A stretch of DNA of 17,020 nt from Deltaproteobacteria bacterium (GTDB lineage Bacteria > Desulfobacterota > DSM-4660 > Desulfatiglandales > Desulfatiglandaceae): assembly GCA_018644785.1 (NCBI GenBank), contig JABGPV010000093.1, positions 1 to 17,020 of the forward strand. Reading direction: 5' to 3'. Below are positions 106 through 13,697 of the stretch, in pieces (the stretch's first letter is position 1; each line of letters begins with the position of its first letter). The notes below the pieces were generated by a model. It was not told the origin of the DNA. It made no database searches and saw nothing but the letters and a program-made list of their open reading frames with translations. A program made the translations under genes and the position numbers.

Positions 106-459
106 TTGCCGAATTCAGAAAAGATCATTATCGAAGTAATGTACAAGGCGAGCTACTGCCTGCCCTGTCTGTATATGGATGAAACCGTCCTTGAAATACT
201 GCCTGAATACGATCAGTATATCGACTATAGGCGAGTCGATTTCATGCATAGCCCCGGAAAAGAAAGGTTTCTGGAGATTTCCTGCGAACTATATGGTGAA
301 GAGGCAGTCCGGAAACACTGCCGTGTGGCGCCGGTTCCCTCCCTTTTCATTGACGGGGAACTGTTCTTTGACGCGATTCCTCCCATGTTTGAGTTGAAAG
401 AGGCCATTGAAGAGGCTTTGAAACAGAAGGGTTTGAGACAAGCAGGAGAATTATCATGA
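106..459 (+). CDS. Thioredoxin-like protein with CLPC active site
   Basis: A 117-residue cytoplasmic protein without signal peptide or membrane segment. A beta strand (residues 7-12) leads into a C18-L-P-C21 redox motif followed by Y-M, and a cis-proline motif V-A-P-V-P-S lies around residues 74-79, followed by a strand and a C-terminal helix; this is the thioredoxin fold. The likely role is thiol-disulfide exchange, partner unknown. The start is TTG at 106, chosen because GGAGG at 95-99 stands six bases upstream. Its TGA stop overlaps the ATG of the next gene (ATGA at 456-459), so the two are translationally coupled. The next gene is a paralogue, with the same EV...(C/U)xxCxYM and APVPS...IDG..(F)FD framework. 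An extra Cys (C60) and a Cys before the cis-Pro region (C72) are also present. The thioredoxin-like assignment is secure; the subfamily is not known to me. Confidence 0.85.
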   Translation: MPNSEKIIIEVMYKASYCLPCLYMDETVLEILPEYDQYIDYRRVDFMHSPGKERFLEISCELYGEEAVRKHCRVAPVPSLFIDGELFFDAIPPMFELKEAIEEALKQKGLRQAGELS

Positions 460-749
460 CATCGAGAATCATTCAGATCGAGGTGCTTCACGAAGGCGCC
501 CATTGAATTTCGTGTGAATACATGGCCAGGCTGGTCGAATCGGTGGTTGCGGACTACGGCGAAACGGTGCGGTGGGAAAAGGTCATCACCAAAGATCTTG
601 TGGGGGCCAAACGTTTTTTGACGCTGTCGAAGGAATTGGGACGTATGGCACCGGTTCCTTCCATATATATCGATGGTAAGCTTGCGTTTGATACCACGCC
701 CGGAAGTGACGAACTTAAGGAATGCTTAAACAGACTGATTTCCGCTTGA
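456..749 (+). CDS. Thioredoxin-like selenoprotein, UxxC active site (in-frame TGA at 504-506)
   Basis: Reading from ATG 456 gives 97 residues if TGA 504-506 is decoded as selenocysteine. The site then reads H16-U17-I-S-C20-E-Y-M, which aligns residue for residue with Y-C-L-P-C-L-Y-M of the upstream paralogue, so Sec replaces the first, nucleophilic Cys. The second half (A-P-V-P-S-I-Y-I-D-G, then a C-terminal helix) matches the paralogue's cis-proline half. If TGA were a stop, only a 16-residue stub plus an ORF from ATG 522 would remain; that ORF lacks the first strand and the redox Cys pair and has no good ribosome site. A SECIS-like hairpin follows the TGA. Expected role: cytosolic selenol/thiol oxidoreductase. 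UxxC thioredoxin-type selenoproteins are established in Desulfobacterota; this exact family is not one I can name. Sec is inferred from alignment and hairpin, not proven. Confidence 0.85.
504..537 (+). promoter_or_regulatory. Sec codon TGA plus bacterial SECIS-like hairpin (thioredoxin-like gene)
   Basis: TGA at 504-506, then 22 bases, then apical loop GGC (529-531) closed by GGCCA/TGGTC (524-528 with 532-536; one G-U pair), extendable by T523-G537. Bacterial SECIS elements lie just after the UGA, with a short stem and a G among the first two loop bases; all three points are met. Confidence 0.7.
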
Positions 750-778
750 GCTGTTGTCACTTCTGATAGAGTCAACTC

Positions 779-2443
779 ATGAAAAGAGTCTCCATCGCAC
801 TGTTTGTTCTCTTCGTATTCGTCTATATCCTTCCCCTGGGTTTCCGACCGCTGACCATTCCGGACGAAACCCGGTACGGGGAGATACCCCGGGAAATGCT
901 GACTTCGGGGGATTGGGTTGTTCCCCGACTGAACGGATTGAAATATTTTGAAAAACCCCCCTTTGGATACTGGGCGAATGCTGTTTCCATGCGCACGTTC
1001 GGCGAGAATACCTTTGCCCTGCGGATACCATCGGCGCTATCCGTAATTGTTTCCGCCCTCATGATTTTTCTGCTGGTACGACGGTTTTCACCCGGGGGGC
1101 CGGCCTCCGTCCTGGCCCCGGCCATCTTTTTGACCTGTCCTCTCGTCCTGGCTATCGGCCACATCAATCTTCTGGACAGCCTGCTTTCCATGCTACTGAC
1201 CGGAGCGCTGGTCTGCTTTTTCTTTGCGCACATGGCGGATAAAATGCGGCGGAAGGCGCTTTTTCTCGCCCTCATGGGCATTTTCTGCGGACTGGCTTTT
1301 CTCACGAAGGGATTTCTGGCCTTCGCCGTGCCGATGCTGGCGGTGGTGCCGTTCCTGCTCTGGGAGGGCCGCTATAAAGACCTGCTCAGGATACCGTGGA
1401 TTCCATTGATAACGGCGGTTGGGATCGTTTTGCCCTGGTCCCTGATGATTCATTTTCGTGAAGGGGATTTCTGGAACTATTTTTTCTGGACGGAGCATGT
1501 GGCAAGATTTTTGGATCCGGTCCGCGGACAGCATCCGAAGCCTCCCTGGTATTTTCTGCCCATTCTGGTGGGTGGCGCGCTGCCATGGATAGCACAGAGT
1601 CCGGCTGTTATACCAACGGTTCTCAAATTCGAAATGAAAAAGCCGCTCATACGGTTTGCCATTTGCTGGTTCCTTTTCCCGTTCCTTTTCTTCTCCGTCT
1701 GCAGCGGCAAACTTATCCCGTATATCCTGCCGTGCTTCCCCCCCTTGGCAATTGTTTTTGCCGTCGGTCTCGCCGCATACTTTGAAGCCGGGAAAAAAAA
1801 GGCTTTTTCGGCTTCCGCCTGGGTGCTGGGTATTCTGTGCGGTCTTGGGGGTCTGTTTTTACTGCTCTCAGGCCTAGTGCAAATGAACTGGGGCGCTAGT
1901 GAGGCGATCAGGATTTATGGCCCTGACGAAGGGGGTAAATGGCTGCTGGGTTCTCTGGGGGCCTTTTTATGGGCTTTTCTGGTGATATGTTCCACCCGGA
2001 TGAAAGACTACCGGAAAAGAATGGTTTTTTACTGTGTGGCTGTCTTGACGTTTTTTTTCATTTCGAATTTTTCTGTTCCCAACAGCGCCATGGATCGCAG
2101 AACGCCGGGAAAGCTTCTCGAGCGAAACCTATCCAGGGTGACCCCCGATGCCATACTGGTGTCCAATGACAATGTGATTCGTGCGGTCTGCTGGTTTTTC
2201 AAGCGGGATGACGTGAAAGTGCTTGAAAAACCAGGCGAATTCACCTATGGGTTGAAACATGACCCTAACAAACCGGGAAAATTTCTGAGTGTTCACGCGT
2301 TAAAGGAATTGATACGCGAAAACGCGGGAAAACGTCCGGTGATTCTGGTTCTGATCCAGGATCACTACAAGGACTACACAGACCAGTTGCCCGCTCCCAT
2401 CTTTATGGATAACGATAACCATTTCGTCTTCACGGTGTATTAA
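779..2443 (+). CDS. ArnT/PMT-type polyprenyl-phosphate sugar glycosyltransferase
   Basis: A 554-residue inner-membrane protein with a hydrophobic first segment and many predicted membrane helices. Near the N terminus is R-P-L-T-I-P-D-E-T-R-Y-G-E-I-P-R-E-M (residues 23-40), whose D29-E30 is the acidic pair of the first periplasmic loop in GT83/GT39 (ArnT, PMT) enzymes, followed by Y-F-E-K-P-P-F-G-Y-W. Such enzymes move a sugar from an undecaprenyl-phosphate donor to lipid A or protein on the periplasmic side. Length matches ArnT (about 550). A soluble C-terminal part of roughly 120 residues follows the last helix. The gene starts 29 bases after the Sec gene, without a strong ribosome site. The donor sugar and acceptor cannot be read from sequence, so I do not call it arnT. 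Confidence 0.85.
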   Translation: MKRVSIALFVLFVFVYILPLGFRPLTIPDETRYGEIPREMLTSGDWVVPRLNGLKYFEKPPFGYWANAVSMRTFGENTFALRIPSALSVIVSALMIFLLVRRFSPGGPASVLAPAIFLTCPLVLAIGHINLLDSLLSMLLTGALVCFFFAHMADKMRRKALFLALMGIFCGLAFLTKGFLAFAVPMLAVVPFLLWEGRYKDLLRIPWIPLITAVGIVLPWSLMIHFREGDFWNYFFWTEHVARFLDPVRGQHPKPPWYFLPILVGGALPWIAQSPAVIPTVLKFEMKKPLIRFAICWFLFPFLFFSVCSGKLIPYILPCFPPLAIVFAVGLAAYFEAGKKKAFSASAWVLGILCGLGGLFLLLSGLVQMNWGASEAIRIYGPDEGGKWLLGSLGAFLWAFLVICSTRMKDYRKRMVFYCVAVLTFFFISNFSVPNSAMDRRTPGKLLERNLSRVTPDAILVSNDNVIRAVCWFFKRDDVKVLEKPGEFTYGLKHDPNKPGKFLSVHALKELIRENAGKRPVILVLIQDHYKDYTDQLPAPIFMDNDNHFVFTVY

Positions 2444-2779
2444 AGCGGTATCCCTTAATATGGAAAACATCAGGGATTACCGGCCCGGGCCAAATCGTGG
2501 ATAGGAAGGTGATGTTTAAACCGGAAGAAGATGCGCCACTCCTGGCCATGTTGCTGGAAACCCATGGCAGTCTGAACAAATCAGAACGGTTCCTTTCACT
2601 TCTAATTAGTGTCTGAACGAAAAAGCCGTTCAGTAGTTTCCTATCCATAAATGCCCTTTTTCCGTCCCGCCGGCGGGACTGAATTGGAAACCCGCTGTGC
2701 CCAAAATGAAATGAGTGGATGGCCACTAAGTATGTCTGGATATCGCCTGAAGCCAAAGCGATCAAAGATACTCTTCCGG
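2444..2779. other. Intergenic region with degenerate coding traces
   Basis: No convincing gene. A short reading from ATG 2460 (M-E-N-I-R-D-Y-R-P-G) stops at TAG after 14 codons. In another frame an ORF from ATG 2512 (GGAAGG just upstream) runs 34 codons to TGA 2614-2616. A single base change of frame near 2488 would join them into one open stretch, so this may be a decayed gene fragment, but I cannot name a family. Confidence 0.3.
2607..2633 (+). repeat. 17-bp repeat with hairpin, partner of 43-59
   Basis: TAGTGTCTGAACGAAAA at 2607-2623 is the inverted partner of 43-59. Here it runs into a 7-bp hairpin, CTGAACG (2613-2619) with CGTTCAG (2627-2633) and loop AAAAAGC. The hairpin lacks a T tract, so a terminator role is uncertain. 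Confidence 0.6.
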
Positions 2780-2808
2780 TTGACAAGGCGTACATTTTCA
2801 TGTACATT
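2780..2808 (+). promoter_or_regulatory. Promoter of the toxin-antitoxin operon with internal palindromic operator
   Basis: TTGACA (2780-2785), 17-bp spacer, TACATT (2803-2808). Inside lies a perfect inverted repeat GTACAT-TTTC-ATGTAC (2790-2805), and TGTACA occurs at 2801-2806. TGTACA is the core bound by YefM in the yefM-yoeB operator, so this is probably the autoregulatory site of the antitoxin that follows. Confidence 0.75.
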
Positions 2809-2863
2809 AAAACAGCCATTTTTGCAGAGTCGTAATGCGGTTTTGACCAAGGAGAATATTGGG

Positions 2864-3127
2864 ATGCAAAAAATACCCATAACTGAAGCAAGGAACGAAT
2901 TCATGAAACTCCCTTACCAGGCCGCCAAACATCAGATCCTTGCTGTTACCAGAAGAAACAAGGAAGTCATGGCGGTCATGAGCTGGGAATTATACGAGGG
3001 GCTACTTGAGACGTTAGAAGTCCTGTCTGATCCAACGCTGATGAATCATCTTAAAAAGGGCATAGATGACGTCAAAGCCGGCAGAACCCATTCCCTCTCC
3101 GAAGCATATGAAAGGCTTGGGGTTTGA
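2864..3127 (+). CDS. Phd/YefM-family antitoxin
   Basis: An 87-residue protein, starting at ATG 2864 with GGAG at 2851-2854 nine bases upstream. The N terminus M-Q-K-I-P-I-T-E-A-R-N-E-F-M is the Phd/YefM DNA-binding fold's first strand and helix, and V-T-R-R-N-K-E-V-M-A-V-M-S-W follows the family pattern in which a basic turn leads to a hydrophobic strand. The C-terminal half is the expected flexible, acidic and helical toxin-binding segment. A longer open frame extends back to 2651, but it crosses the promoter and operator, so the short start is right. The toxin gene begins within its last codons. It should repress its own promoter together with the toxin. Confidence 0.85.
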   Translation: MQKIPITEARNEFMKLPYQAAKHQILAVTRRNKEVMAVMSWELYEGLLETLEVLSDPTLMNHLKKGIDDVKAGRTHSLSEAYERLGV

Positions 3128-3455
3128 AATACCGGATTCGCATTACCGATACCTGTCTTGCTCTGATAGAAAAAATCCTGACAAGAAAATTCAGCGGACG
3201 ATTTTAGATCGAATTAAGAATTTATCGGATGTACCCGACAAACAGGGTAAAAGATTGGTCAAAGACCTATCCGGATTCCGCTCGATACATGTGGCAGGAA
3301 GATACAGGGCCATCTACAAAATCGATAAACAGACCGTGATTGTTCATGTTCTTGCTGTAGGAATCAGAAAAGAAGGTGACAAAAAAGATATCTATAAGAT
3401 TGCAAAAAAACTGTTAAATGCAGGCCTACTGGATTTAGATCCGGATAAGACCTGA
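3124..3455 (+). pseudogene. RelE/ParE-family toxin, frameshifted near 3170-3178
   Basis: A RelE-type mRNA interferase or ParE-type toxin is recognisable in two frames. Frame one starts at TTG 3124, overlapping the antitoxin stop, and gives L-K-Y-R-I-R-I-T-D-T-C-L-A-L-I-E-K, the usual first strand and helix. The homology then continues in another frame with P-D-K-K-I-Q-R-T-I-L-D-R-I, the core D-L-S-G-F-R-S-I-H-V-A-G-R-Y-R-A-I-Y-K-I-D and R-K-E-G-D...I-Y-K-I-A-K-K-L. The switch falls at A6 (3170-3175) followed by TCC; one missing A or C explains it. The second frame is open back to 3066, but that part is only antitoxin shadow. Options are a true inactivating deletion, a sequencing error in a homopolymer, or slippage at the A run. 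The conserved core Arg residues are intact, so decay, if real, is recent. Confidence 0.7.
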
Positions 3456-3804
3456 TGCCTGCACCCTACTCTAAGGACCCTCTCCGCCTTTACCCTCAGT
3501 TCATTCTTTGCCTCCGCCTTCTGATCTCTGGTTTTTCCCCTTCCGCGCCATGCGGCAGGCTGAAATGTCGTACGTAGACCAAGCTCGTTCCAAGTCTTCA
3601 GCACTGGGGACAGATCACTAATTTTAGACAGGCCTATGGGGGATTAAAAAAACCCAAAATTTATTCAATCACTGCTGAAATATTGTAGCAGAACTTTTTA
3701 GGCAACCCGCCTGCTGGTGTTGCGGGTGTAACCGTCCACCGGGCCAACCACAAACTTATGTCTCCCCCCCGCCCTGTAAGTGTTTACCAGTGCCCCATAC
3801 TTTC
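3456..3804. other. Intergenic region, no gene seen
   Basis: About 350 bases without a supportable gene. ACCCGC (3705-3710) and GCGGGT (3722-3727) could form a weak 6-bp stem. A stretch around 3607-3625 (GGGGACAGATCAC) resembles flanks I associate with REP-type transposases, but no transposase is readable here. Confidence 0.4.
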
Positions 3805-3833
3805 TTGGGATTCTGCTGGGATTTGGGTATAAA
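3805..3833 (+). promoter_or_regulatory. Sigma70-like promoter of the AAA ATPase gene
   Basis: TTGGGA (3805-3810), 17-bp spacer, TATAAA (3828-3833), followed by TAAT. It places the transcript start about 25 bases before the ATG at 3868. Confidence 0.55.
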
Positions 3834-3867
3834 TAATGCTTGACTTGTCGGCAGATTGACGGCGATA

Positions 3868-5031
3868 ATGCCCGGCATGTTTACACGTGAACTAAAGATA
3901 ATAGGCACTTCAGCTTTTTTGCTTGGGCCGAGAGGAACGGGAAAATCCACCTGGATTCAGAAAAACTATAAGGATAATACCGTTGTTTACGATCTTCTAA
4001 ATACCACGGAATTGATCCGTCTCAGCCGGGATCCGTCCCTGCTTTACCGGGAAACCGCTCATTTGCCTTCGGGCTCATGGGTTATCGTAGATGAAATTCA
4101 AAAAGTACCTGCTTTGCTTAACGAGGTACACAGAATAATTGAAGAGAAAAGAATCAGATTTATTTTATCTGGATCAAGCGCACGAAAACTGAGAGAATCC
4201 GGAGTTAATCTGCTGGCCGGCAGGGCCCTTACTTACAACCTTTTCCCTTTGGTGACCCAAGAGGTCGGCTTCGAACTCGATTTGGACAGGCAGATCGCTT
4301 TCGGTATGCTTCCAAGTTCATTTTCAGCGGCAAATCCTAAGAGATACCTGCGAGCATACACAGAAACCTATTTGAAAGAAGAGATCAGGGAAGAGGCACT
4401 AACAAGAAATTTTGGTAATTTTGCCCGCTTCCTGGAAATAGCCGCCCGTCAAAACGGACAGCTCACCAACACAGCAGCCATCGCGAGAGATGCAGGGGTG
4501 GCACGACAAACAGTTCAGGGCTATTTTGATATATTAATCGATACGCTGATCGGTTATTGGCTCGCCCCATGGAAACTCAAAAGGACGACCAAGCAGGTGA
4601 GCCATTCGAAGTTCTACTTTTTCGATTCCGGTGTGGTCAGGGCATTGTCCGGTCGACTGCCTTATCCCGCAACACCTGAAGAATCCGGGCCGTTATTCGA
4701 ATGTTTTATAATTAACGAAATGAGAGCATACCTGCACTACACCGAGCTGGATTACCCGCTTTATTTCTGGAGAAGTCAGAACGGAGTAGAAGTGGATATC
4801 CTTCTCGAAACTTCAAAAGGTTATGTGGCCATCGAGCTGAAAAACGGCGTCGGATGGGTGAATAAATTCAACCGGGGGATGCACAGATTAGCAGAGGAGT
4901 TCGGCAGAAACAAAGTTAAATGTATTGGCGTCTTCAGGGGTGAAAGGCAACTCATGATGGATAGTGTCATGGTCTATCCTGCGCTTGATTTCTTAAGACG
5001 TTTATGGGATGGTGAAATTATTCAAGACTAA
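3868..5031 (+). CDS. AAA_14/DUF4143-type ATP-binding protein
   Basis: A soluble protein of 387 residues from ATG 3868 (TTG 3856 and ATG 3877 are in-frame alternatives; none has a clear ribosome site). It has a Walker A motif G-P-R-G-T-G-K-S-T near residue 20, a Walker B motif W-V-I-V-D-E-I-Q-K-V-P near residue 70, and a sensor-like F-I-L-S-G-S-S-A-R-K-L. A winged-helix-like stretch (T-N-T-A-A-I-A-R-D-A-G-V-A-R-Q-T-V) and a C-terminal nuclease-like strand pattern V-E-V-D-I-L-L-E...V-A-I-E-L-K-N-G follow, as in DUF4143. This is the common family of mobile, patchily distributed AAA proteins of unknown cellular role. It stands alone behind its own promoter, beside a toxin-antitoxin locus, consistent with an accessory island. 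The family is certain; the function is not. Confidence 0.9.
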   Translation: MPGMFTRELKIIGTSAFLLGPRGTGKSTWIQKNYKDNTVVYDLLNTTELIRLSRDPSLLYRETAHLPSGSWVIVDEIQKVPALLNEVHRIIEEKRIRFILSGSSARKLRESGVNLLAGRALTYNLFPLVTQEVGFELDLDRQIAFGMLPSSFSAANPKRYLRAYTETYLKEEIREEALTRNFGNFARFLEIAARQNGQLTNTAAIARDAGVARQTVQGYFDILIDTLIGYWLAPWKLKRTTKQVSHSKFYFFDSGVVRALSGRLPYPATPEESGPLFECFIINEMRAYLHYTELDYPLYFWRSQNGVEVDILLETSKGYVAIELKNGVGWVNKFNRGMHRLAEEFGRNKVKCIGVFRGERQLMMDSVMVYPALDFLRRLWDGEIIQD

Positions 5032-5134
5032 ACCACCTGTCTGATCCTGTTTCTCGTCCGGAATCTCCCTCAATTTCTGTAATAGTCCTTTTGTCTTCGT
5101 GGTGTATTAAGAATGAGAAGGGCAGAATGTAATA

Positions 5135-6376
5135 TTGCCCCGTGAAATTATGAATATCGAGTCTCAACGAAAAATTGACCGGATTGCGGGCAAAGCCATT
5201 TGCCGCCTGCTTTCCCTGTTTCCCCGAAAGAAGGTTAAAGCGGGGAGTGTGCCGTCATCGCCAAAAATTCTGGTCATACTCCTCTCTGAAATGGGGAGTC
5301 TTGTGCTGGCCCATCCCATGTTTACATATTTAAAAAAAAATCACCCCGGTGCGGATATCTTTGTGCTGGTATTTAAAAAGAACAGGGAATGCCTGGAAAC
5401 CCTGAAGCTGGTTCCTGAAAGAAATATCCTGACAGTCCATGGAGATTCGCTGACGGCAATGTTGAAGGACAGCATCCGGTTTATATTCCGGATGCGGAGA
5501 GAGAAAATAGATGCAGTGATTGACTGTGAACTCTTTTCAAGGATCAGCAGTATTTACGCTTTTCTAAGCGGTGCCGGGTTGCGGGTGGGGTTTCATCCCC
5601 ACACCCAGGAGGGCCTTTACAGGGGTGATTTTATTAACCGGCCCGTTCTCTACAATCCCTACCGCCACATATCCAGGCAGTTTGTGGCTTTGGCGCAGTC
5701 AATGGAAAACGGGAATGGTTTCCCTTTGGTGAAACGAAACGTGGGTGATGACGTTTTTTGTATCCCAACGCTGAATCCCAATGCGGATCAGCAGGAAGAC
5801 TTGAAGAACAGACTGAAAAGCGATTTTCCGGAAACCATTGGAAAAGATCTGGTCTTGCTTTATCCGGGAGGCGGCCTGCTCCCCATACGGGCATGGCCTT
5901 TGGACAATTATTGCGGAATTGCCACGAACCTGCTTGCAAAAGGTTACGTTGTGGGCATTATCGGGATGAAAGAAGATGCACCCCTGGCTGAAGTCATTTC
6001 CTCACGGTGTCAAAGCCCATATTGTATTGATCTCACCGGTTATACCCGAACCATCATGGAGCTGATCACCCTTCTTCATTTCGGGTCCCTTCTCATCACC
6101 AACGACGGGGGTCCCGGGCATTTCGCTTCGTTGACGTCGATCCCGACCATTATTTTCTTTGGCCCGGAGACCCCGACCCTGTATGCCCCGCTCAGTGAAA
6201 ATGCGGTAAGTCTCCATGTGCCACTGCCCTGTTCTCCATGTCTCACCGCCTACAACCACAGGAATTCTCCCTGCGACGGGAACAATGCCTGCCTTAAAGC
6301 CATCAGTCCGGAGGAAGTGTTTGATAAGGCCTGCGAACTGCTGAAAATAGACACCATTACCCCTATCATCTTATGA
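5135..6376 (+). CDS. Glycosyltransferase family 9 (heptosyltransferase-like)
   Basis: A 413-residue cytoplasmic or membrane-associated GT-B enzyme. The N-terminal Rossmann part starts with I-L-V-I-L-L-S-E-M-G-S-L-V-L-A-H-P, the family's acceptor-side motif. The C-terminal part has L-Y-P-G-G-G (nucleotide-sugar domain start), and N-D-G-G-P-G-H-F-A-S-L-T-S-I-P-T with F-F-G-P-E-T-P, which is the GT9 D-x-G-P-x-H donor motif. A four-Cys cluster (C-S-P-C, then C and C before the end) is also typical of the LPS heptosyltransferase branch. The start may be TTG 5135 or ATG 5150; AAGGG at 5119-5123 is the only nearby ribosome-like site. Its stop overlaps the next gene (ATGA at 6373-6376), so the two form a coupled pair. 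The sugar transferred is not readable; an LPS core or other envelope glycan is likely. Confidence 0.88.
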   Translation: MPREIMNIESQRKIDRIAGKAICRLLSLFPRKKVKAGSVPSSPKILVILLSEMGSLVLAHPMFTYLKKNHPGADIFVLVFKKNRECLETLKLVPERNILTVHGDSLTAMLKDSIRFIFRMRREKIDAVIDCELFSRISSIYAFLSGAGLRVGFHPHTQEGLYRGDFINRPVLYNPYRHISRQFVALAQSMENGNGFPLVKRNVGDDVFCIPTLNPNADQQEDLKNRLKSDFPETIGKDLVLLYPGGGLLPIRAWPLDNYCGIATNLLAKGYVVGIIGMKEDAPLAEVISSRCQSPYCIDLTGYTRTIMELITLLHFGSLLITNDGGPGHFASLTSIPTIIFFGPETPTLYAPLSENAVSLHVPLPCSPCLTAYNHRNSPCDGNNACLKAISPEEVFDKACELLKIDTITPIIL

Positions 6377-8508
6377 ACAGACCCTTGCACTCCATTCTTT
6401 CGGTAATTTCGTGGGGTTGGCACCAGCGCCACCGCTTCTTGAAGTTCGGCATGGTGGGTCTCGGCGGCGTGGTCATCAATCAGGTGGCTGTCTGGTTGTG
6501 TCACGCCCATGTGTTCGCGACCGTCGAGAACCCCTCGCTTCGTCTCAACCTGTCCCTGGCGGTTGGAATCCTGCTGAGCATGACCAACAACTTTCACTGG
6601 AACCGCCGGTGGACCTGGAAGGATCGCGCGCGCGCCCGTGAGGTGCCGATTGTACGTCAGTACCTGCAATACGCCGCCGCCAACTGGGCGGGCATTGTGG
6701 CACAGGTGACCATCACCAATCTGTTCATACGGTGGATGCCCTATTTGCTGGCCAATATGATCGGCATCGGTGTGGGATGCGTGGCCAACTTTATTTTGAA
6801 TGACCTGTGGACCTATCGCCAGGAAAGGAAGACGCGCCAGGAAAGGGGGCTGTCCCCCCTTCTTTTGACCATCAGCGGGCTCATTTTTGCTTTGTGCACC
6901 TATCTGTACGGTCTTGCCTCCCTGCACATTCTTCGGAACGGCGACGAACTGGTGTACATGCAAATCACGCGCGTGACCAGCATGGCCAAAGAGTGGCTGC
7001 CCCTGCAGGCCATTCCGGGCATGGGAAACACAAAGCCGCCACTGCTGTTCTGGCAGGGACTGGTGAGTACGGATTGGGGGAATCACTGGTCGGTGGTGGC
7101 GCTGCGCTGGCCCAGCGTGGCGTGGACTTTCGGTACGGCGCTGCTCTGCGGTCTGTTGGGATGGCGGTTGTCCGGGCGGGATGTATTCAAGGGGGCCCTG
7201 GCGGCGCTTTTCTATCTGGCCTTTTTCAGCACCTACCGCTACGGACGGCCTTATTTGACCAATCCACCTGAAACATTCTGGGTGTTCGCATGCTTTTTCA
7301 CCATGCTGTGGTGGAAGCCGCGATCCTTTGAGTCGCGCTTCGTTTTCCCGACCATCCTGGGTGTGCTGGCAGGCATGGCGCTGCTGACCAAAAGTTTCGC
7401 CCAACTGTTGCCCATCGGCGTGGGGCTATCGTGGTGGCATCTGCATGTGCGTGGGTGGCGTGTGACCTCATTTGCGCGCGACTCACTCCCGGGCCTCGTC
7501 TGGACAGCGCTGGTTTCGCTGGGCATGTTCTCGTTGTGGTTTTTGTTCGATCCTGACCCCGCGGCGGTATGGCAGGAGTTCGTGCTGGGGGAAAATGTGG
7601 GCAAAATGGCGGGCAGCGTGGGTTCCTGGTTGAAAGGGTTTTTGTGGAACGGCGACACTGTCTGGTCCCTTGCCGGGAGCTGGTTCTTCAACGCGGGTCT
7701 CCTGGCCTTTCCCTTGTTCGGTTTGATGGTGGTATGCTGGAAGCACCGCCGCACTTTGCTTGAAGAGGAGAAACTACTGTGGATCTGGGTCTTCGCCATC
7801 TTTATCGTGTTCTGCATTCCCAGTCAGCGGAGCGGGCGTTATCTGCTGGAGGGCATGCCGGCGCTGGCGGTGCTGCTGGCGACACGCTGCCGGCAGGTGG
7901 GTCGATATGCCTTCGTGTTGACGCTGGCAGGCGCCATTGCGGTGCTGTTGTCCCTGGGGTGGATATCGTTGCTGCTGGCGCGTGAGGTGGGTATAGAGGC
8001 CTTCAGCTGGTGGCACTTCCCGCTGGTGGTTGCTGCTGTGGCGTTTTCAGCGACGGCCATGGCACGGCCGCGGTGGACCGCCATGTGCACCCCCATCGCA
8101 GCGCTGTCGGTGTTCCTGGTGCTGACCAGTTTTCTTTCCGTGTTTGACGCGCCGCTGGGAACTTACGACACTGCCGTTATCAAGGCCACCGCTGATCGCG
8201 TGGTGTGGGCGCCGGAGAAGTTTCGCTCCAAGGCGGAAACCCATCGCTTCCTGCTGCCTCACGCGGTGGTGCGCGGCTATCCGGCCGGGGGGAAGGTGCC
8301 CGACGTACCCATTCGTGGGCCCCATGACTTAATGGTGATTCAACAGCCGCTGGATGCGCCGGCGCCTGAGGGCGCCATCGGCAGTCGCATCGATATTACC
8401 AGTCGGCACAAAGCCTGGCAGATCCGGGAAATGGCTACCGGCAACGTGAAGAAGCACTTGTTTGCCCGGGAGTGGGTCGTTCCCGCGGGTTCGCTGCCGG
8501 TTCGGTGA
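6373..8508 (+). CDS. GtrA-like domain fused to ArnT/PMT-type glycosyltransferase
   Basis: A 711-residue multi-pass membrane protein joining two domains. Residues about 20-150 are a GtrA/DPMS-type four-helix domain (R-F-L-K-F-G-M-V-G-L-G-G near residue 21, F-I-L-N-D-L-W-T-Y near 140), whose relatives help flip or present polyprenyl-phosphate sugars. From about residue 165 an ArnT/PMT-type transferase begins, with the acidic pair D191-E192 in R-N-G-D-E-L-V-Y-M and N-T-K-P-P-L-L-F-W at 219-227. A long helix-rich middle and a soluble tail follow. The fusion suggests that donor presentation and transfer are combined in one polypeptide. The ATG overlaps the stop of the GT9 gene. Base composition looks richer in G and C than in neighbouring genes, which may hint at a different origin. 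The donor and acceptor are unknown. Confidence 0.88.
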   Translation: MNRPLHSILSVISWGWHQRHRFLKFGMVGLGGVVINQVAVWLCHAHVFATVENPSLRLNLSLAVGILLSMTNNFHWNRRWTWKDRARAREVPIVRQYLQYAAANWAGIVAQVTITNLFIRWMPYLLANMIGIGVGCVANFILNDLWTYRQERKTRQERGLSPLLLTISGLIFALCTYLYGLASLHILRNGDELVYMQITRVTSMAKEWLPLQAIPGMGNTKPPLLFWQGLVSTDWGNHWSVVALRWPSVAWTFGTALLCGLLGWRLSGRDVFKGALAALFYLAFFSTYRYGRPYLTNPPETFWVFACFFTMLWWKPRSFESRFVFPTILGVLAGMALLTKSFAQLLPIGVGLSWWHLHVRGWRVTSFARDSLPGLVWTALVSLGMFSLWFLFDPDPAAVWQEFVLGENVGKMAGSVGSWLKGFLWNGDTVWSLAGSWFFNAGLLAFPLFGLMVVCWKHRRTLLEEEKLLWIWVFAIFIVFCIPSQRSGRYLLEGMPALAVLLATRCRQVGRYAFVLTLAGAIAVLLSLGWISLLLAREVGIEAFSWWHFPLVVAAVAFSATAMARPRWTAMCTPIAALSVFLVLTSFLSVFDAPLGTYDTAVIKATADRVVWAPEKFRSKAETHRFLLPHAVVRGYPAGGKVPDVPIRGPHDLMVIQQPLDAPAPEGAIGSRIDITSRHKAWQIREMATGNVKKHLFAREWVVPAGSLPVR

Positions 8509-8526
8509 CAGCTTGCCTGCCGTCAC
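8505..8526 (-). terminator. Possible terminator hairpin between convergent genes
   Basis: On the minus strand GTGACGGC-AGGCAA-GCTGTCAC forms an 8-bp stem with one G-U pair, 28 bases past the GcvH-like stop. No T tract follows, so intrinsic termination is uncertain. It overlaps the stop codon of the plus-strand gene. Confidence 0.3.
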
Positions 8527-8553
8527 TTTGCCCCGTTGTCGGTCCAAAAACCG

Positions 8554-9063
8554 CTAGATCTTCTGCGCTACGATACCGCCGTACACGGCCTTGCACATTC
8601 CCGAAACACCGCCTTTTAGACCCTCCGGATTTTTGCATCCCTCTGAGTTCTTCAGGCTTTCGGCGTATGCCGACGCCTCGGCCAGTTGGTGGAATTCCTT
8701 TTCCGATTCTTCTCCCGATTTTAGTTTAAAGAGCCATCCTTGGCCATAGGGATCTCGCAACACTAGCTCGGGATCACGTTTTACCCCGTCATTAAAGTGG
8801 ATATCCCCCGTTAACGGTGAATCGATGTAGAGGATTTTTCCGGTAATGGCAAAGATAACGGTCCCCCCTTGCCCACCCGTGTCCCCTTCCGCCACGAGCC
8901 AGTCCAAATCTTTGAGACCACCGGCAAGAATCAAGGCCGGTTCACTCAAACCGAACACGATAGAATCTTCGTCCTGTTTGGCCCAAAGGCCCTGCTTGAT
9001 GTAATAGCGACGATCTTCGGGTATCTCCAGACGCTTACCCAGAAACTTTTCAATAATGACCAT
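8554..9063 (-). CDS. GcvH-like (lipoyl-domain) protein
   Basis: A 169-residue soluble protein. The second of two tandem ATGs (9063) is preferred because AAGGAG (9074-9069) is five bases away; from 9066 the gap is only two. The segment R-D-P-E-L-V-L-R-D-P-Y-G-Q-G-W-L-F-K-L matches the C-terminal signature of glycine cleavage H proteins, and I-T-G-K76-I-L-Y-I-D-S-P-L-T-G-D-I matches the lipoyl hairpin, with K76 as the candidate lipoyl lysine. The hairpin seems one residue shorter than the E-S-V-K-A of true H proteins, so lipoylation is not assured. A tail with C143 and C157 follows, which classical GcvH lacks. No gcvT or gcvP is nearby; it is the last gene of an ArsR-redox operon, so a carrier role in thiol or sulfur chemistry is more likely than glycine cleavage. 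That role is inference. Confidence 0.8.
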   Translation of the reverse strand: MVIIEKFLGKRLEIPEDRRYYIKQGLWAKQDEDSIVFGLSEPALILAGGLKDLDWLVAEGDTGGQGGTVIFAITGKILYIDSPLTGDIHFNDGVKRDPELVLRDPYGQGWLFKLKSGEESEKEFHQLAEASAYAESLKNSEGCKNPEGLKGGVSGMCKAVYGGIVAQKI

Positions 9064-9111
9064 CATAACTCCTTAATCGACCATGTACGAATAGGGTGAT
9101 GATAACAACCA

Positions 9112-9429
9112 TCACTTCTTCAGCAAACGACCCAGCATTCCCTTCTTTTTCGGTTCCGGAGGTGGAAGTCCGAGACTTTTGCAAATGGCCGCCTCGACCT
9201 TTTCATCTGAAATATCCGAACCCTCCGTCACAATCTCTTCGCCGACCATAATGGCGGGAGCCACCGGCAAATCCAACTCAAAGTATTCATCCGTGTTGAA
9301 TTCCGCAGGCGGTTTGCTGATGGTCTCGATCTCAATATCGTAAGTTGCGCCCAACCTGGGCATCATGGTTTTGAAATGTTTTCAAGGTTTTCCGTTAGGT
9401 TCGTTAAGAAAGAATTTAACTTTTAACAT
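9112..9429 (-). CDS. Small Trx-fold selenoprotein with GKPU motif (in-frame TGA at 9382-9384)
   Basis: From ATG 9429, behind AGGAGGT (9440-9434), the frame reads M-L-K-V-K-F-F-L-N-E-P-N-G-K-P-U16-K-H-F-K-T and continues to residue 105 when TGA is read as Sec. A caller that stops at TGA would begin at ATG 9366 and lose the first strand and the Sec. Strand 2-8, the redox turn at 13-16, a helix, V-A-P-A-I-M-V with likely cis-Pro P58, and a final helix with C83 describe a thioredoxin/glutaredoxin-like fold. There is no CxxU or UxxC pair, so the partner Cys must be C83 or another protein. A charged tail (K-K-K-G-M-L-G-R-L-L-K-K) ends it. The gene overlaps the end of the DsbD fusion gene by 7 bases and precedes the GcvH-like gene. 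No signal peptide, so cytoplasmic. Sec is inferred. Confidence 0.82.
9348..9384 (-). promoter_or_regulatory. Sec codon TGA plus bacterial SECIS-like hairpin (GKPU gene)
   Basis: TGA at 9384-9382; 24 bases later loop AGGTT (9357-9353) closed by GCCC/GGGC (9361-9358 with 9352-9349), plus a U-G pair at 9362/9348. Four G-C pairs and GG in the loop make it the cleanest SECIS-like element of the window. Confidence 0.78.
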
Positions 9430-11279
9430 GGTGACCTCCTTTTAGAATAAATATGGCAATACGAAATATCGCCTTTGATTCCACGCGCTGCGCGGAAATT
9501 TTTTGATGTCATTATGATTTGAAAATGAGAATTGCCGGACGTAACATTTTTTTCCGCATCCCGCATGAGGCCCAGGAACTGGCCCGGCGGTAAGTAGTCC
9601 ACAAGGCGAAGATTCTGCAGTTCAACACCGTTACTGTCCAGAAACACCACGGTGGGAACGCCCTTGATCCGGTACCGGGCCAGCAGTTGTTCGTGAAGGG
9701 GATTGCCTTTTTTTGTCAGATCAACCTTGATCATTACAAAGTTAAGCATTCCCCGATCAACCACGCGTTTGTCGTGAAAAGTGATTTCATCCAGCTCTCG
9801 ACAGGGCGCACACCAATCTGCGTAGAATTCAATGATGACGGGTTTTTTCAGTTGTTTCGCCTGGGCGAGCAGTTCATCGGAGTAGGGCTGCCATGCCACA
9901 CCGGGGCCTTGCATGAACCAGGTACTCGTGAGGATGACAGCCAGGACCAGTCCCGTTGTTCCGGCAAGTGACTTAACCCACCCGAAACCCCGGAAAGCGT
10001 TTTTGGTTCTGTCGATCCAGCCCAGGTGAAGACCCGCGGAAAGAGCCACTGCGGCAAGGATAAATACCCCCACGGATTTTGGGAAAATCGGTCTGATAAA
10101 ATAGGCGGCCATGCCCACAAGGACCCACCCCATGAGTTTTCGAATCCACAGCATCCATTCGCCGGATCTGGGCAGTTTGTCAATCTGCCCTGAAAAAACG
10201 GCCAGGAAAAAGAGGGGCAGGCCCAGGCCCAGGCTCAAGGTGAAGAAGATGAGAAACCCCAGCCAAGGGCTTCCCATGCTGGCCACCCAGGTCAGCAACC
10301 CCAGGACAAAGGGACCGATACAGGGGGCGGCCACTACGCCCAGGGTGATCCCCATAAAGAGGGTCCCAAAATATCCCGTGTAGGATTTTGAAGCGGCCTG
10401 TGTCAACCCCGCGGGAAGTTTCAATTCCCAGAATCCGAAAAGGCTCGCCGCAAATAGCATCATGACGAGCGCAATCAGGACGAGCACAATGGGGTTCTGT
10501 AGCAGGGCTCCCATGAGGCTGCCGGTCAAGGCGGCTGTCACACCCAGGATGGAATTGGTGAGCGACAGACCACCGATGTAGCAGGCCCCATGGGCGAAAA
10601 GGTTCCCCCGGCCTCCTCCGCTTCTGCCGCCGAAATAGGAAACGGTTATGGGGATCAGGGGATAGACGCAAGGTGTCAGGTTGAGGGCCATACCCCCTGC
10701 AAATATGCCCAACAACGTCCAGATCATGGCCCAGCCGTTTAGAGGTCCGGGTTCTTCGGGCTTGGTGGAGATTTGGGACAGGCCCGCCGGCTGGCTTGCT
10801 ACGGGATATCCCTTTTTGTGCCATTCAGGATAACCTATGGGATCACGATAAACGTTTTTGTAACCCAGTTTTACGGCTACCCGAGCCGCCGAGTCGCTTC
10901 GGACTCATGCAAGCCCCGCTCAGTAAAAGACGAGGAAACGGTTTTTATCAGGTCCCAGGAATTTTTCCAGTTCATCCTTTTTCTTCCACCGCGACAACCA
11001 GGTGGGTTCCATGGGAAAATTCACGGCGCCTTTGATATGTCCGGTCCGGTATTCCCATTCCTGGCGGGCGTCTACCAGCAAGAAGCCTTGGGGGTCCTCA
11101 TCATACAGTTTCTTGAGTCTTTCCGTATTGATAAGCTGATACCCGCCGTTTGCGGCCTCGGCAACCACGTCTTCGTAGGTGGCGGTTACAGGCGCCACCG
11201 GACGGTTGGTATACCAGAGAAAGCCCACCGTGACGGCCACGGCGACGAGGGCCATTATAGCTGTTTTTAGGCTATTCAT
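9423..11279 (-). CDS. Rhodanese-DsbD-thioredoxin fusion selenoprotein with two Sec (in-frame TGAs at 10920-10922 and 10905-10907)
   Basis: One frame runs from ATG 11279 (GAGG at 11290-11287, seven bases upstream) to TAA 9425-9423 and is broken only by two TGAs. With both read as Sec it gives 618 residues. Order: N-terminal membrane anchor (about 4-24); periplasmic rhodanese domain with L-L-V-D-A-R-Q-E-W-E-Y-R-T-G-H-I-K-G-A and active loop F-Y-U120-A-G-L-A-U125-V-R-S-D-S-A-A; the domain's end L-G-Y-K-N-V-Y...G-Y-P-E-W; a linker; DsbD/CcdA membrane part from M185 with redox cysteines in L-T-P-C204 and A-A-P-C320; a C-terminal periplasmic thioredoxin domain with W-C491-A-P-C494. U120 is the rhodanese catalytic Cys position, and U125 takes the second conserved Cys of the YCxxxxC form. 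Standard calling would give two fragments, 11285-10920 and 10727-9423, and lose the active site. Likely role: membrane electron relay feeding a selenol sulfurtransferase or reductase. The domains are secure; Sec and the single-chain reading are strong inference. Confidence 0.85.
10873..10907 (-). promoter_or_regulatory. Second rhodanese Sec codon and SECIS-like hairpin
   Basis: TGA at 10907-10905; 21 bases later loop CGGGT (10883-10879) closed by CGGCT/AGCCG (10888-10884 with 10878-10874), plus a G-U pair. This hairpin does not overlap the pairing bases of the first one except at its margin, so each TGA has its own element. Confidence 0.7.
10890..10922 (-). promoter_or_regulatory. First rhodanese Sec codon and SECIS-like hairpin
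   Basis: TGA at 10922-10920; 18 bases later loop CGAAGC (10901-10896) closed by GAGTC/GACTC (10906-10902 with 10895-10891), with a further U-G pair at 10907/10890. The second TGA lies at the foot of this stem. Confidence 0.62.
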
Positions 11280-11319: not shown

Positions 11320-11775
11320 TCATAGTTTCCCCTCTCTTTTCAGCTTTGTGATCAGGAATTCAGCCCCCGATCGGGACAGGCCGCAGCCCTTCGCCAGGTC
11401 AGAGGGGCTTGTTGAGCCGGTTTTCTTAGCAAAATCGACAACTTCACCGTCCAGTTCTTCCAACCAGTCCTCAAACAGTGATAGGATCTCGGGGTCGGCA
11501 ACCGATGTAAGTTGTTTTGACCGGGCCACTTTGTCCACCATGCTCTGGCACATATCCGTTGGATCGACACCTTCGTCCATGCAGGTGGCCATTCAAAGAT
11601 GAACCATGCTGGTCAGCTTTTCATCGGAAGGTGTCCCCAGCAGATTTGACACCAATTCCAGTCGCGTTTCTTCTTCCAGAAAGAGGAACACATTCTCCAA
11701 TATGCCGGTGAGCGCCCGTGCGGCTTCCTCAGGTGTCATGTTATCGACCAGTTTTTGAATCTTGTCTGTACTCAT
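11320..11775 (-). CDS. Predicted selenoprotein of unknown function with winged-helix-like C terminus (in-frame TGA at 11593-11595)
   Basis: Two adjoining open frames, 11775-11596 and 11592-11320, are in the same phase and separated only by TGA. Read through, they give 151 residues with H-L-U61-M-A-T-C65-M-D. The first 55 residues are helical and acidic (T-P-E-E-A-A-R-A-L-T, F-L-E-E-E-T-R-L-E-L-V). C76 follows in the middle. The end, D-L-A-K-G-C131-G-L-S-R-S-G-A-E-F-L-I-T-K-L-K-R-E-G-K-L, looks like the recognition half of a winged helix. The ATG directly after the TGA has no ribosome site, which argues against two coupled genes, and a SECIS-like hairpin follows. I do not recognise the family. 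It sits between the ArsR gene and the rhodanese-DsbD gene, so it may be a redox-sensing or accessory protein. This is the weakest of the four Sec assignments, because no Cys homologue is visible in the window. Confidence 0.7.
11560..11595 (-). promoter_or_regulatory. Sec codon TGA plus bacterial SECIS-like hairpin (winged-helix-like gene)
   Basis: TGA at 11595-11593; 20 bases later loop AGGTG (11572-11568) closed by CGA/TCG, then a bulged A (11564), then TGGA/TCCA: seven pairs from 11579 to 11560. GG in the loop and the spacing fit bacterial SECIS. Confidence 0.65.
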
Positions 11776-11794: not shown

Positions 11795-12130
11795 TTAAAA
11801 TGATTTTCTTTTTGATAAAAGGTCTGTTACCAGTTCATGCAGTTGTTTGAGGATATCAATAATTCTCTGGTCTGCTACTTTATAATAGATAAAAGGCCCA
11901 CGTCGCTCCACATGGAGCAAAAGCGTTCGTTTCAATTCTTTAAGATGGTGGGAAACAAGGGGTTGGGAAAGTCTGAGCTCTTCCACTATTTGGGAAACAG
12001 ATTTTTCCCCGCCAATCACACAAAGGAGAATACGGAGGCGATTTTCATCGGCGAGGCTCTTGGATAGCGTGGCAACGGTATCAAGATGGTCGTTCAAACG
12101 AGGCATGGTTACTGCTTTTGAATGCGGCAA
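11795..12130 (-). CDS. ArsR-family transcriptional repressor
   Basis: A 111-residue winged-helix regulator. The helix-turn-helix is S-V-S-Q-I-V-E-E-L-R-L-S-Q-P-L-V-S-H-H-L (about residues 44-63), preceded by D-E-N-R-L-R-I-L and followed by the wing R-R-G-P-F-I-Y-Y-K-V. TTG 12130 is chosen as start because GGAGG (12140-12136) is five bases upstream; ATG 12106 is an alternative without such a site. The usual metal-binding ELCVCDL box is absent, and a single Cys sits before the HTH (L-L-C-V-I-G-G), so the signal is probably not arsenic through the classical site. It leads the operon of redox and selenoprotein genes and has a 34-bp palindrome upstream, so it most likely represses its own operon. 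The ligand is unknown. Confidence 0.88.
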   Translation of the reverse strand: MPHSKAVTMPRLNDHLDTVATLSKSLADENRLRILLCVIGGEKSVSQIVEELRLSQPLVSHHLKELKRTLLLHVERRGPFIYYKVADQRIIDILKQLHELVTDLLSKRKSF

Positions 12131-12167: not shown

Positions 12168-12201
12168 GATCAGTATATCAACGTGTATTGATATATTGAT
12201 C
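12168..12201 (-). promoter_or_regulatory. ArsR-type operator palindrome
   Basis: TATATCAA-cgtgta-TTGATATA (12174-12195) is a perfect inverted repeat, extended outward by GATCA and TGATC with one mismatched pair between. It lies 38 bases before the arsR start. TATACT (12177-12172, minus) inside it could be a -10 box, so binding would block transcription. Confidence 0.75.
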
Positions 12202-12534: not shown

Positions 12535-13617
12535 TCAGGAATCTTTGTTGGTAACACCCGCTTCTTCAAACGTGAGCATCTCCCTGGCAATTTTGGCCGC
12601 ACCCCCGATAATCCCCATGGCCAATGCGCCGCCGGTTCCTTCCCCCAGGCGCATTCCCAAATCCAGAATCGGGTCCAGTTGCAGATAATCGAGCATGCCC
12701 CGATGTCCCGGTTCTTCCGAACAATGTCCCGCAAAGAGATAATCTTTGACGGCTGGACAGAGCGCATTGGCAACGAGGGCACCGGCCGTTGAGATAAAAC
12801 CATCGATCACCACGGGGCGGCTATGGTAGGCGCCGGCCAGTATGCATCCGGCGATGCCGCCGATTTCGAATCCCCCTATTTTTTTTAGGACATCCAGACC
12901 ATCCCGGGCATCAGGCTGGTTCACTTCAATGGCGCGGCGGATGACATCCTTCTTCCGTGTAAGACCCTCATCGTCGACGCCGGTTCCCCGGCCCACCATC
13001 TTCTCCACGCTTCCGCCGGTCAATACGACACCGATTGCGGCGGAAGGGGTGGTGTTGCCGATGCCCATGTCGCCCGTCCCCAATATTTCCACGCCATTTT
13101 CCAGAAGATCAGACGCCACATAAAACCCCGTGAGCACCGCTTCTTCTGCCTTCTCACGTGTCATGGCGGGACCTTTAGCCATGTTTTCTGTGCCCCTGCC
13201 CATTTTGCGAACCAGAAGCCGGTCACCGTTAGCAAGGGAATCGGGGTCCAGATCCGGAATGATGCCCATATCCACCACCTGAACTTGTGCATTGATCCCT
13301 CCGGCCAGGATGTTGATGCCCGCACCTCCCATTAGAAATGCGCGAACCATCTCACCGGTAATGACCTGGGGATAAGCGCTGACGCCTTCCTCAACAACCC
13401 CATGGTCACCGGCCATCACCAGAAAGGCTTTTGCGTCAATTGAAGGCTTGAGCGTTCTGTTTATGGCACACAAACGTTCTCCAATATCATGAATCTTTCC
13501 AAGGGCGCGTGTGGGCATGACCAGTTGGGAGGTTCTCTGCCTCGCTTTTTCCATCCATTCTTCTTCAATGGGTTTCACCGATCCGATGATTTCCCGCAAA
13601 CCCGCTTTTTCAGACAT
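12535..13617 (-). CDS. cobT: Nicotinate-nucleotide--dimethylbenzimidazole phosphoribosyltransferase CobT
   Basis: CobT transfers phosphoribose from nicotinate mononucleotide to 5,6-dimethylbenzimidazole or a related base, forming the alpha-ribotide of the cobamide lower ligand, in the cytoplasm. The protein is 360 residues, as usual for the family. Markers in order: P-T-R-A-L-G-K-I-H-D-I-G near residue 35, M-A-G-D-H-G-V-V-E-E-G-V-S-A-Y-P, G-T-G-D-M-G-I-G-N-T-T-P-S-A-A-I, G-G-F-E-I-G-G-I-A-G, and L-G-E-G-T-G-G-A-L-A near the end, which holds the catalytic Glu. ATG 13617 is chosen because GGAGGA (13630-13625) is seven bases upstream; ATG 13620 and ATG 13632 are in-frame alternatives. No other cobalamin gene lies in the window. 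Its leader has a promoter and an intrinsic terminator. Confidence 0.95.
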   Translation of the reverse strand: MSEKAGLREIIGSVKPIEEEWMEKARQRTSQLVMPTRALGKIHDIGERLCAINRTLKPSIDAKAFLVMAGDHGVVEEGVSAYPQVITGEMVRAFLMGGAGINILAGGINAQVQVVDMGIIPDLDPDSLANGDRLLVRKMGRGTENMAKGPAMTREKAEEAVLTGFYVASDLLENGVEILGTGDMGIGNTTPSAAIGVVLTGGSVEKMVGRGTGVDDEGLTRKKDVIRRAIEVNQPDARDGLDVLKKIGGFEIGGIAGCILAGAYHSRPVVIDGFISTAGALVANALCPAVKDYLFAGHCSEEPGHRGMLDYLQLDPILDLGMRLGEGTGGALAMGIIGGAAKIAREMLTFEEAGVTNKDS

Positions 13618-13697
13618 CATGCTCTCCTCCATTTCATTTTCTCATTTTTTAATTCATAGGTATAGGCTAACCGGATAAAAAGTTCGTTTCGCCGCGC

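Follow-up and report, generated by a model that had tools for sequence, protein, structure and literature searches.

DsbD of the Escherichia coli type passes electrons from cytoplasmic thioredoxin to its membrane domain, then to its C-terminal domain (Cys461/464) and finally to its N-terminal immunoglobulin (Ig) domain (Cys103/109), as outlined in the available text of PMC3961690. TsoB, a protein family with the motif UxxxxU and two selenocysteines (Sec, U), is listed in the available text of a 2026 review (PMC13188914) and credited there to Haft and Tolstoy 2025; the same text describes Tso, with the same credit, as a three selenoprotein operon. Here, we analyzed a stretch of 17,020 nucleotides (nt) of a Deltaproteobacteria bacterium (contig JABGPV010000093.1 of assembly GCA_018644785.1; hereafter, the window) and the gene at 11279-9423 on its minus strand, in which a rhodanese, a DsbD-like membrane domain and a thioredoxin domain are joined and two TGA codons lie in frame. 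Sequence comparisons suggest that this gene is the tsoB of a known Tso operon and encodes a DsbD-type protein with a rhodanese carrying two predicted Sec as its terminal domain, likely passing thioredoxin electrons to the Sec pair; we give this reading a probability of about 0.72.

TsoB shares with DsbD (PRK00293/NF001419) the membrane domain and the C-terminal thioredoxin domain, with two cysteine (Cys) pairs in common, and the order of electron transfer is likely the same. In contrast, where DsbD has its N-terminal Ig domain with Cys103/Cys109, TsoB has a rhodanese with U120/U125 and no Pfam match to an Ig domain, and its score against NF001419 (240.2 bits) is below the cut-off of 330. The nearest two-Cys rhodanese proteins (P0005 to P0009) carry a YCxGxxC loop at the same site as TsoB, with 38-43% identity over the rhodanese region, but they are 365-382 residues long, contain several stretches resembling rhodanese (judged by eye) and have Cys instead of Sec, and no DsbD domain is listed for them. 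Two Sec in one active site are also found in the UxxU selenoproteins, which are peroxiredoxin-like thiol:disulfide oxidoreductases in the available text of PMC13188914, and a title cited by PMC2398784 names a family of selenoproteins whose redox motif contains a diselenide. The UxxU proteins differ in fold (PF00578), and two residues separate their Sec, whereas TsoB has four, placed in a rhodanese loop. The family with the diselenide motif is presumably SelL.

Read with TGA as Sec, the frame encodes 618 residues and ends at a TAA stop; the translation confirms the statement of an earlier note on this DNA that the frame is broken solely by the two TGA codons. The read-through product scored 1018.4 bits (cut-off, 805) against the NCBIfam model NF045694, named 'rhodanese/DsbD fusion-like selenoprotein TsoB', and contains the motif UxxxxU as U120 and U125. 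Because of this match and the listing in PMC13188914, the gene is assigned by sequence to TsoB and belongs to a described family, not to a new kind. The earlier note, which took such an arrangement to be undescribed, read the likely chemistry correctly but misjudged the novelty. Among the papers listed by literature searches for the Tso names and the 2025 title, only PMC13188914 named TsoA or TsoB. The window copy has the domain order of the NF045694 family, its two Sec in UxxxxU, and its operon with TsoA, TsoC and TsoR, and differs from it in nothing of substance, the departures being an unshared tail of about 40 residues and 7.8 kilobases (kb) downstream of the operon that are absent in the close relative L002.

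The Pfam matches place the rhodanese, DsbD membrane and thioredoxin domains in a single chain. One PF00581 match covers the sequence before, between and after both TGA codons, and the Pfam order together with the family score supports the further claim of the earlier note that the rhodanese runs on without interruption into DsbD and a WCAPC thioredoxin domain. Residues 120, 125, 204, 320, 490, and 493 were invariant in all 69 aligned proteins, with the UGA positions entered as Cys in the alignment. This combination of domains and invariant Cys pairs supports the view, put forward before, that the rhodanese is linked to an electron path of its own in the membrane.

The closest solved chain to the rhodanese domain by sequence was the rhodanese 6mxv, which was also among the fold matches. 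In rhodaneses, the usual active-site loop is CX4R. TsoB does not have this loop length; its loop is two residues longer than those of 6mxv and 3d1p, the nearest solved rhodaneses aligned, with the gap at or beside the second Cys/Sec. The AlphaFold2 model of TsoB, built from the 69-row alignment, had a mean predicted local distance difference test score (pLDDT) of 79.4 and a predicted template modelling score of 0.64, with pLDDT values below 50 at residues 165-175 and 583-618. In a Foldseek search with the whole model, solved DsbD-gamma domains were the best matches and rhodaneses were also matched. The last ~40 residues of the window's TsoB (window positions 9423-9545) are absent from the aligned relatives, and this tail overlaps the ribosome site and the start of tsoC.

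Both TGA codons are conserved, and this conservation together with the family score goes far past what chance would produce. Genome contigs were scanned for relatives, and the best 80 of 578 loci were analyzed; in the 75 loci whose loop could be read, TGA occupied both loop positions (75/75), as in the window. The other five loci start inside the gene (L073, L077, and L080), are masked just upstream of the match (L074), or have no rhodanese domain (L079). The last of these encodes a TsoB-like membrane-thioredoxin protein with a signal-like start (L079:7860-9272; 606.9 bits, below the cut-off). From one phylum, 395 genomes were drawn, with at most three candidates scored in each; 23 matches over the cut-off came from 22 genomes, eight of which overlap the earlier genome set (G001 to G049). 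Exactly two TGA codons were present in 22 of these matches and none in the remaining one, whose genome also has a Sec/Sec operon; no further tso gene appeared in the 12 kb of sequence read around this match.

Full-length forms with Cys are rare, and they have Cys at both positions. Only two full-length fusion proteins, P0003 and P0004, both Cys/Cys, came out of two word-based searches that covered 5.8 billion proteins. In a midpoint-rooted tree of 70 proteins, these were nested among Sec forms: P0003 grouped with the Sec form L051 (support 100/99), and P0004 joined this pair (100/99). Because the Cys forms lie inside the Sec tree, the Cys/Cys form looks derived, with both positions switching jointly. 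No mixed Sec/Cys TsoB was seen in the 75 readable loci, the 23 matches of the 395-genome draw, or the protein searches; only the two DNA sets test for such a form, since protein databases would truncate it. Homologues with residues other than Cys or Sec at both positions, which would have spoken against the earlier note, were likewise absent from the 80 loci, the draw and the protein searches, and the pattern of TGA/TGA in readable loci and Cys at both positions in Cys forms agrees with its view that both conserved loop Cys are replaced by predicted Sec. This all-or-none switch is compatible with a bonded pair. One genome carries a lone Cys/Cys TsoB (L111:5026-6732) together with a Sec/Sec tso operon (L112), and the latter has a second tsoC copy and a thioredoxin reductase gene adjoining tsoR.

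The RNA downstream of the first UGA can form two consecutive hairpins, which were analyzed in 75 aligned sequences. The earlier note had given each UGA a hairpin of its own, and this view held for hairpin 2, which shows compensatory changes, but not for hairpin 1, which shows almost no covariation. In hairpin 2, 99.6% of cells were paired and both sides had changed in 34 cells, at two of the six pairs (24 and 10). Pair 36/48 was GC in 46 sequences, AU in 19, CG in 3, GU in 3, UA in 1, UG in 1, and other in 2, and pair 39/45 was CG in 64, UA in 10, and UG in 1. These compensatory changes are silent because they fall on third codon positions, joining alanine with alanine in one pair and alanine with, nearly always, valine in the other. 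The helix was recovered independently by RNAalifold. The 448 paired cells exceeded those of 1000 synonymous within-column codon shuffles (417.9 ± 2.5), none of which was as high, and the covariation signal disappeared when the pairing partners were slid.

In 74 rows, the codon at the start of the hairpin 2 loop is CGG, CGT, or AGG, and the remaining row has AGT. The loop thus has G followed by G or U in 75/75, as is mostly the case in the published bacterial model of the selenocysteine insertion sequence (SECIS). The bacterial SECIS rules in the available text of PMC13188914 are a stem, a G in the loop, a spacing of 16-37 nt, and an energy of -7.5 kcal/mol or lower. Hairpin 2 in the window has six pairs, a CGGGU loop, a spacing of 21 nt, and a borderline energy of -7.5 kcal/mol, and the energy was at or below -7.5 in 66/75 sequences. 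The UGA-to-loop spacings of 18, 21, and 36 nt all lie within the range. Hairpin 1 was paired in 93.3% of cells, and its codon usage was far from background (GTC in 68/74 valine, GAC in 72/74 aspartate, and AGY in 75/75 serine codons), giving 420 paired cells compared with 295.6 ± 11.4 under background codons. Its third loop place takes any base, its energy in the window (-6.3) does not come down to the published limit, and its fragment did so in only 17/75 sequences. We suggest that SelB would read hairpin 2 as the SECIS of the second UGA; the first UGA may be served by hairpin 1 or by hairpin 2, which lies 36 nt off and within 16-37 nt. No match was obtained in an Rfam scan of the window.

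Regarding the decoding machinery, SelB exceeded the cut-off in 49 of 50 genomes (49 genomes of relatives and the genome with both TsoB forms) compared with 2 of 14 controls. tRNA-Sec was over the cut-off in 43 of the 49 relatives' genomes, which come from 50 of the 80 loci, and 40 of these matches reached at least 68 bits over the full model. Taken together, the comparisons establish at the sequence level the family, the operon and the order of the domains, along with two conserved UGA codons, six redox residues that do not vary, and a hairpin after the second UGA kept by silent compensation.

Several observations weigh against this interpretation. The codon shuffles keep no phylogeny, and relatedness therefore inflates the hairpin signal, while hairpin 1 shows no covariation beyond codon choice (420 paired cells against 418.1 ± 0.4 in shuffles, the largest being 420). 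Single-strand folding after each UGA in the window was no better than that of shuffled sequences (z of 0.01 and -1.00) and was not counted as evidence. Moreover, both stems persist, with GG in the second loop, in the single Cys form read at the DNA level, so that here the hairpins fail to tell Sec from Cys forms, and the idea that they are lost in Cys forms was dropped; the stems may reflect a recent origin from a Sec form. The data on the Sec machinery are SelB and tRNA-Sec in the genomes of relatives, not in the window's own genome, and tRNA-Sec was below the cut-off in 6 of the 49. The same cut-off was passed by 5 of the 14 control genomes, which makes the weaker tRNA-Sec matches unsure. 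The operon context also varies: of the 67 loci in which upstream DNA extended for 1.2 kb or more, 36 had tsoR and tsoA, one had tsoA alone, seven had a weak ArsR match, and 23 had none of these.

The reading that both TGA codons are true stops, so that either a short rhodanese fragment is separate from a DsbD gene or the gene has decayed, fits 10 of the 20 matches of the first protein search (P0010 to P0016, P0018, P0020, and P0022), whose predicted proteins begin after the second TGA. However, both TGA codons are kept in every readable relative, the protein is conserved on both sides of them, silent-site covariation lies 3' of the UGA, and full-length Cys/Cys forms exist; we rejected this explanation as extremely unlikely. 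Decoding of TGA as another residue, such as tryptophan, would equally leave the frame open, but relatives have Cys, not tryptophan, at both positions, tsoA, tsoC, and the HUIPC gene in the same window terminate at TGA, and SelB is present in relatives. This reading was also rejected and deserves practically no credence.

Other explanations accept the two Sec and change the chemistry. TsoB might be a sulfur or selenium transferase and not a reductase, in which a perselenide on Sec120 would hand sulfane sulfur to a partner and the DsbD part would only keep the Sec pair reduced. The rhodanese domain counts in favour of this view, some loci have ArsR-rhodanese fusion regulators upstream, and Sec120, aligned with a Cys of 6mxv, stands at the start of the loop that holds the catalytic Cys of rhodaneses. 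The second Sec and the two extra loop residues nevertheless point to a redox pair, and the positions are jointly Sec or jointly Cys wherever read, as expected for a bonded pair, so that a transferase appears unlikely. An enzyme acting on metals or metalloids, with a loop like that of Cdc25/ACR2 arsenate reductases and phosphatases or with soft-metal binding, under an ArsR/SmtB sensor, seems still more improbable. TsoR is classed with the ArsR/SmtB metalloregulators, but ArsR-type proteins also sense sulfur species, and BigR is a weak match. The Cdc25 matches are weak (best E of 0.00018) and stop at the loop start. A DedA/VTT gene lies near tsoB in 32/80 loci, and a title cited in PMC10127716 ties DedA to selenite; no known metal exporter was found in the scanned members of the recurrent neighbour clusters listed.

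We therefore return to an electron relay that ends on the Sec pair. TsoB keeps the first stations of DsbD and a rhodanese replaces the last, which makes the Sec pair the likely end of the relay. Electrons would flow from cytoplasmic thioredoxin to Cys204/Cys320 in the membrane, then to Cys490/Cys493, and finally to Sec120/Sec125, and the Sec pair would switch from a diselenide to two selenols and back, in the way that Cys103/Cys109 of DsbD alternate between a disulfide and a dithiol. Outside the inner membrane, the substrate might be an oxidised form of sulfur, for example, sulfane sulfur or polysulfide; the rhodanese might bind this sulfur substrate and the relay might reduce the bound sulfur. 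A sulfur substrate is favoured by the rhodanese fold and by the ArsR-type genes, ArsR-rhodanese fusions in the three scanned, upstream of tsoB in some loci. The link to thioredoxin is counted in favour of the relay, as reductase genes occur near tsoB in some loci; genes for thioredoxin reductase were present at a distance of up to 6 kb in 4/80 loci (one scanned). As a more speculative and, taken as a whole, rather doubtful extension, the two Sec could form one unit that is gained or lost together, with a single SECIS after the second UGA recoding both UGA codons, 15 nt apart, as the ribosome opens hairpin 1, and with the Sec pair ending a DsbD relay that reduces periplasmic sulfane sulfur or polysulfide in sulfur-cycling anaerobes.

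The features of the window are collected in Table 1.

Table 1. Features of tsoB, its RNA hairpins and its neighbourhood, with coordinates in the window
Feature	Coordinates	Strand	Evidence
tsoB: N-terminal helix, rhodanese with U120/U125, DsbD transmembrane domain, C-terminal thioredoxin (WCAPC)	9423..11279	minus	NF045694, Pfam, frame
First UGA, residue 120, predicted Sec	10920..10922	minus	Translation; TGA in 75/80 loci (other 5 unreadable); Cys in P0003 and P0004
Second UGA, residue 125, predicted Sec	10905..10907	minus	Translation; TGA in 75/80 loci (other 5 unreadable); Cys in P0003 and P0004
Rhodanese domain, residues 53-155, spanning both TGA	10815..11123	minus	PF00581, 57.7 bits (gathering score 22.2)
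DsbD-type transmembrane domain, residues 186-398, Cys204 and Cys320	10086..10724	minus	PF02683, 139 bits; Cys invariant in 69/69
C-terminal thioredoxin domain, Cys490-x-x-Cys493	9636..9896	minus	PF13899, 47.7 bits; fold matches
Hairpin 1, containing the second UGA; first UGA to loop 18 nt	10890..10907	minus	Pairing in 75 sequences
Hairpin 2, likely SECIS, columns 34-50; second UGA to loop 21 nt, first UGA 36 nt	10873..10889	minus	Pairing and covariation
tsoA, UGA at 11595-11593 (LUMATC)	11320..11775	minus	NF045695 over full length, 215.6 bits (cut-off 170); TGA in 39/41 relatives
tsoC, UGA at 9384-9382 (NEPNGKPU)	9112..9429	minus	NF045708, 148.7 bits (cut-off 45); TGA in 59/59 relatives
tsoR, ArsR/SmtB-type regulator	11795..12130	minus	NF045707, 156.7 bits (cut-off 115)
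GcvH-related gene, downstream of tsoC	8554..9066	minus	NF045810, 257 bits (cut-off 150)
Palindrome TATATCAA-N6-TTGATATA, possible operator, upstream of tsoR	12174..12195	minus	Sequence
HUIPC-type thioredoxin-like selenoprotein gene, UGA at 504-506 (HUISC)	456..749	plus	NF047660, 142.4 bits (cut-off 105)

As in the Tso operon, tsoA, tsoB, and tsoC are adjacent and accompanied by tsoR. A search of the window for the literal motif LULAxC gave no match and missed tsoA because the window's tsoA reads LUMATC. The Sec position of TsoC was TGA in every locus with a match; the two TsoA loci that depart from TGA had AGA and an unaligned position, respectively. tsoC was found within 2 kb in 51 of the 66 loci with at least 2 kb of downstream DNA. 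In 8/80 loci, an ArsR-type gene with a weak tsoR match lies directly upstream of tsoB, and no tsoA match was found there. All three of the upstream ArsR-type genes scanned encode ArsR-rhodanese fusions (L006:7650-8327, L017:7602-8279, and L029:7626-8291). The palindrome upstream of tsoR was considered as a conserved TsoR operator and dropped, a looser form of it being present in 1 of 37 relatives. Further upstream of tsoR, the window contains a CobT-like gene (by eye; 12535-13632), and a second CobT-like gene occurs in L111, about 3 kb away from the lone Cys form.

The commonest neighbour outside the tso genes was a DedA/VTT-type membrane gene, found within 6 kb in L052 (2204-2875) and 31 other loci; 37 of the 39 copies in this cluster are downstream of tsoB, and the domain was verified in one member. 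Loss of the lipoyl lysine was considered for the GcvH-like protein; aligned to a solved GcvH, it has a lysine opposite a lysine, next to a one-residue gap. At the other end of the window (106-749), two thioredoxin-like paralogues lie in tandem, one with CLPC (106-459; 70.3 bits, below the cut-off of 105) beside the predicted Sec form with HUISC. About 7.8 kb (750-8539), containing glycosyltransferase-, GtrA-, and toxin-antitoxin-like genes and ATPase genes (by eye), separate this pair from the GcvH-like gene. The two blocks abut in L002, which indicates that the 7.8 kb were gained in the window or lost in L002.

The tsoB gene offers a clean case for the decoding of two UGA codons that lie five codons apart, the second of them inside the first hairpin. 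It also bears on what Sec-Sec gains over Cys-Cys in a relay whose end is likely located outside the inner membrane. Natural comparisons are provided by the Cys/Cys forms, which emerged from within the Sec/Sec forms and one of which shares its genome with a Sec/Sec form. If the relay feeds the rhodanese, TsoB would supply electrons to sulfur chemistry beyond the inner membrane in the kin of sulfate reducers.

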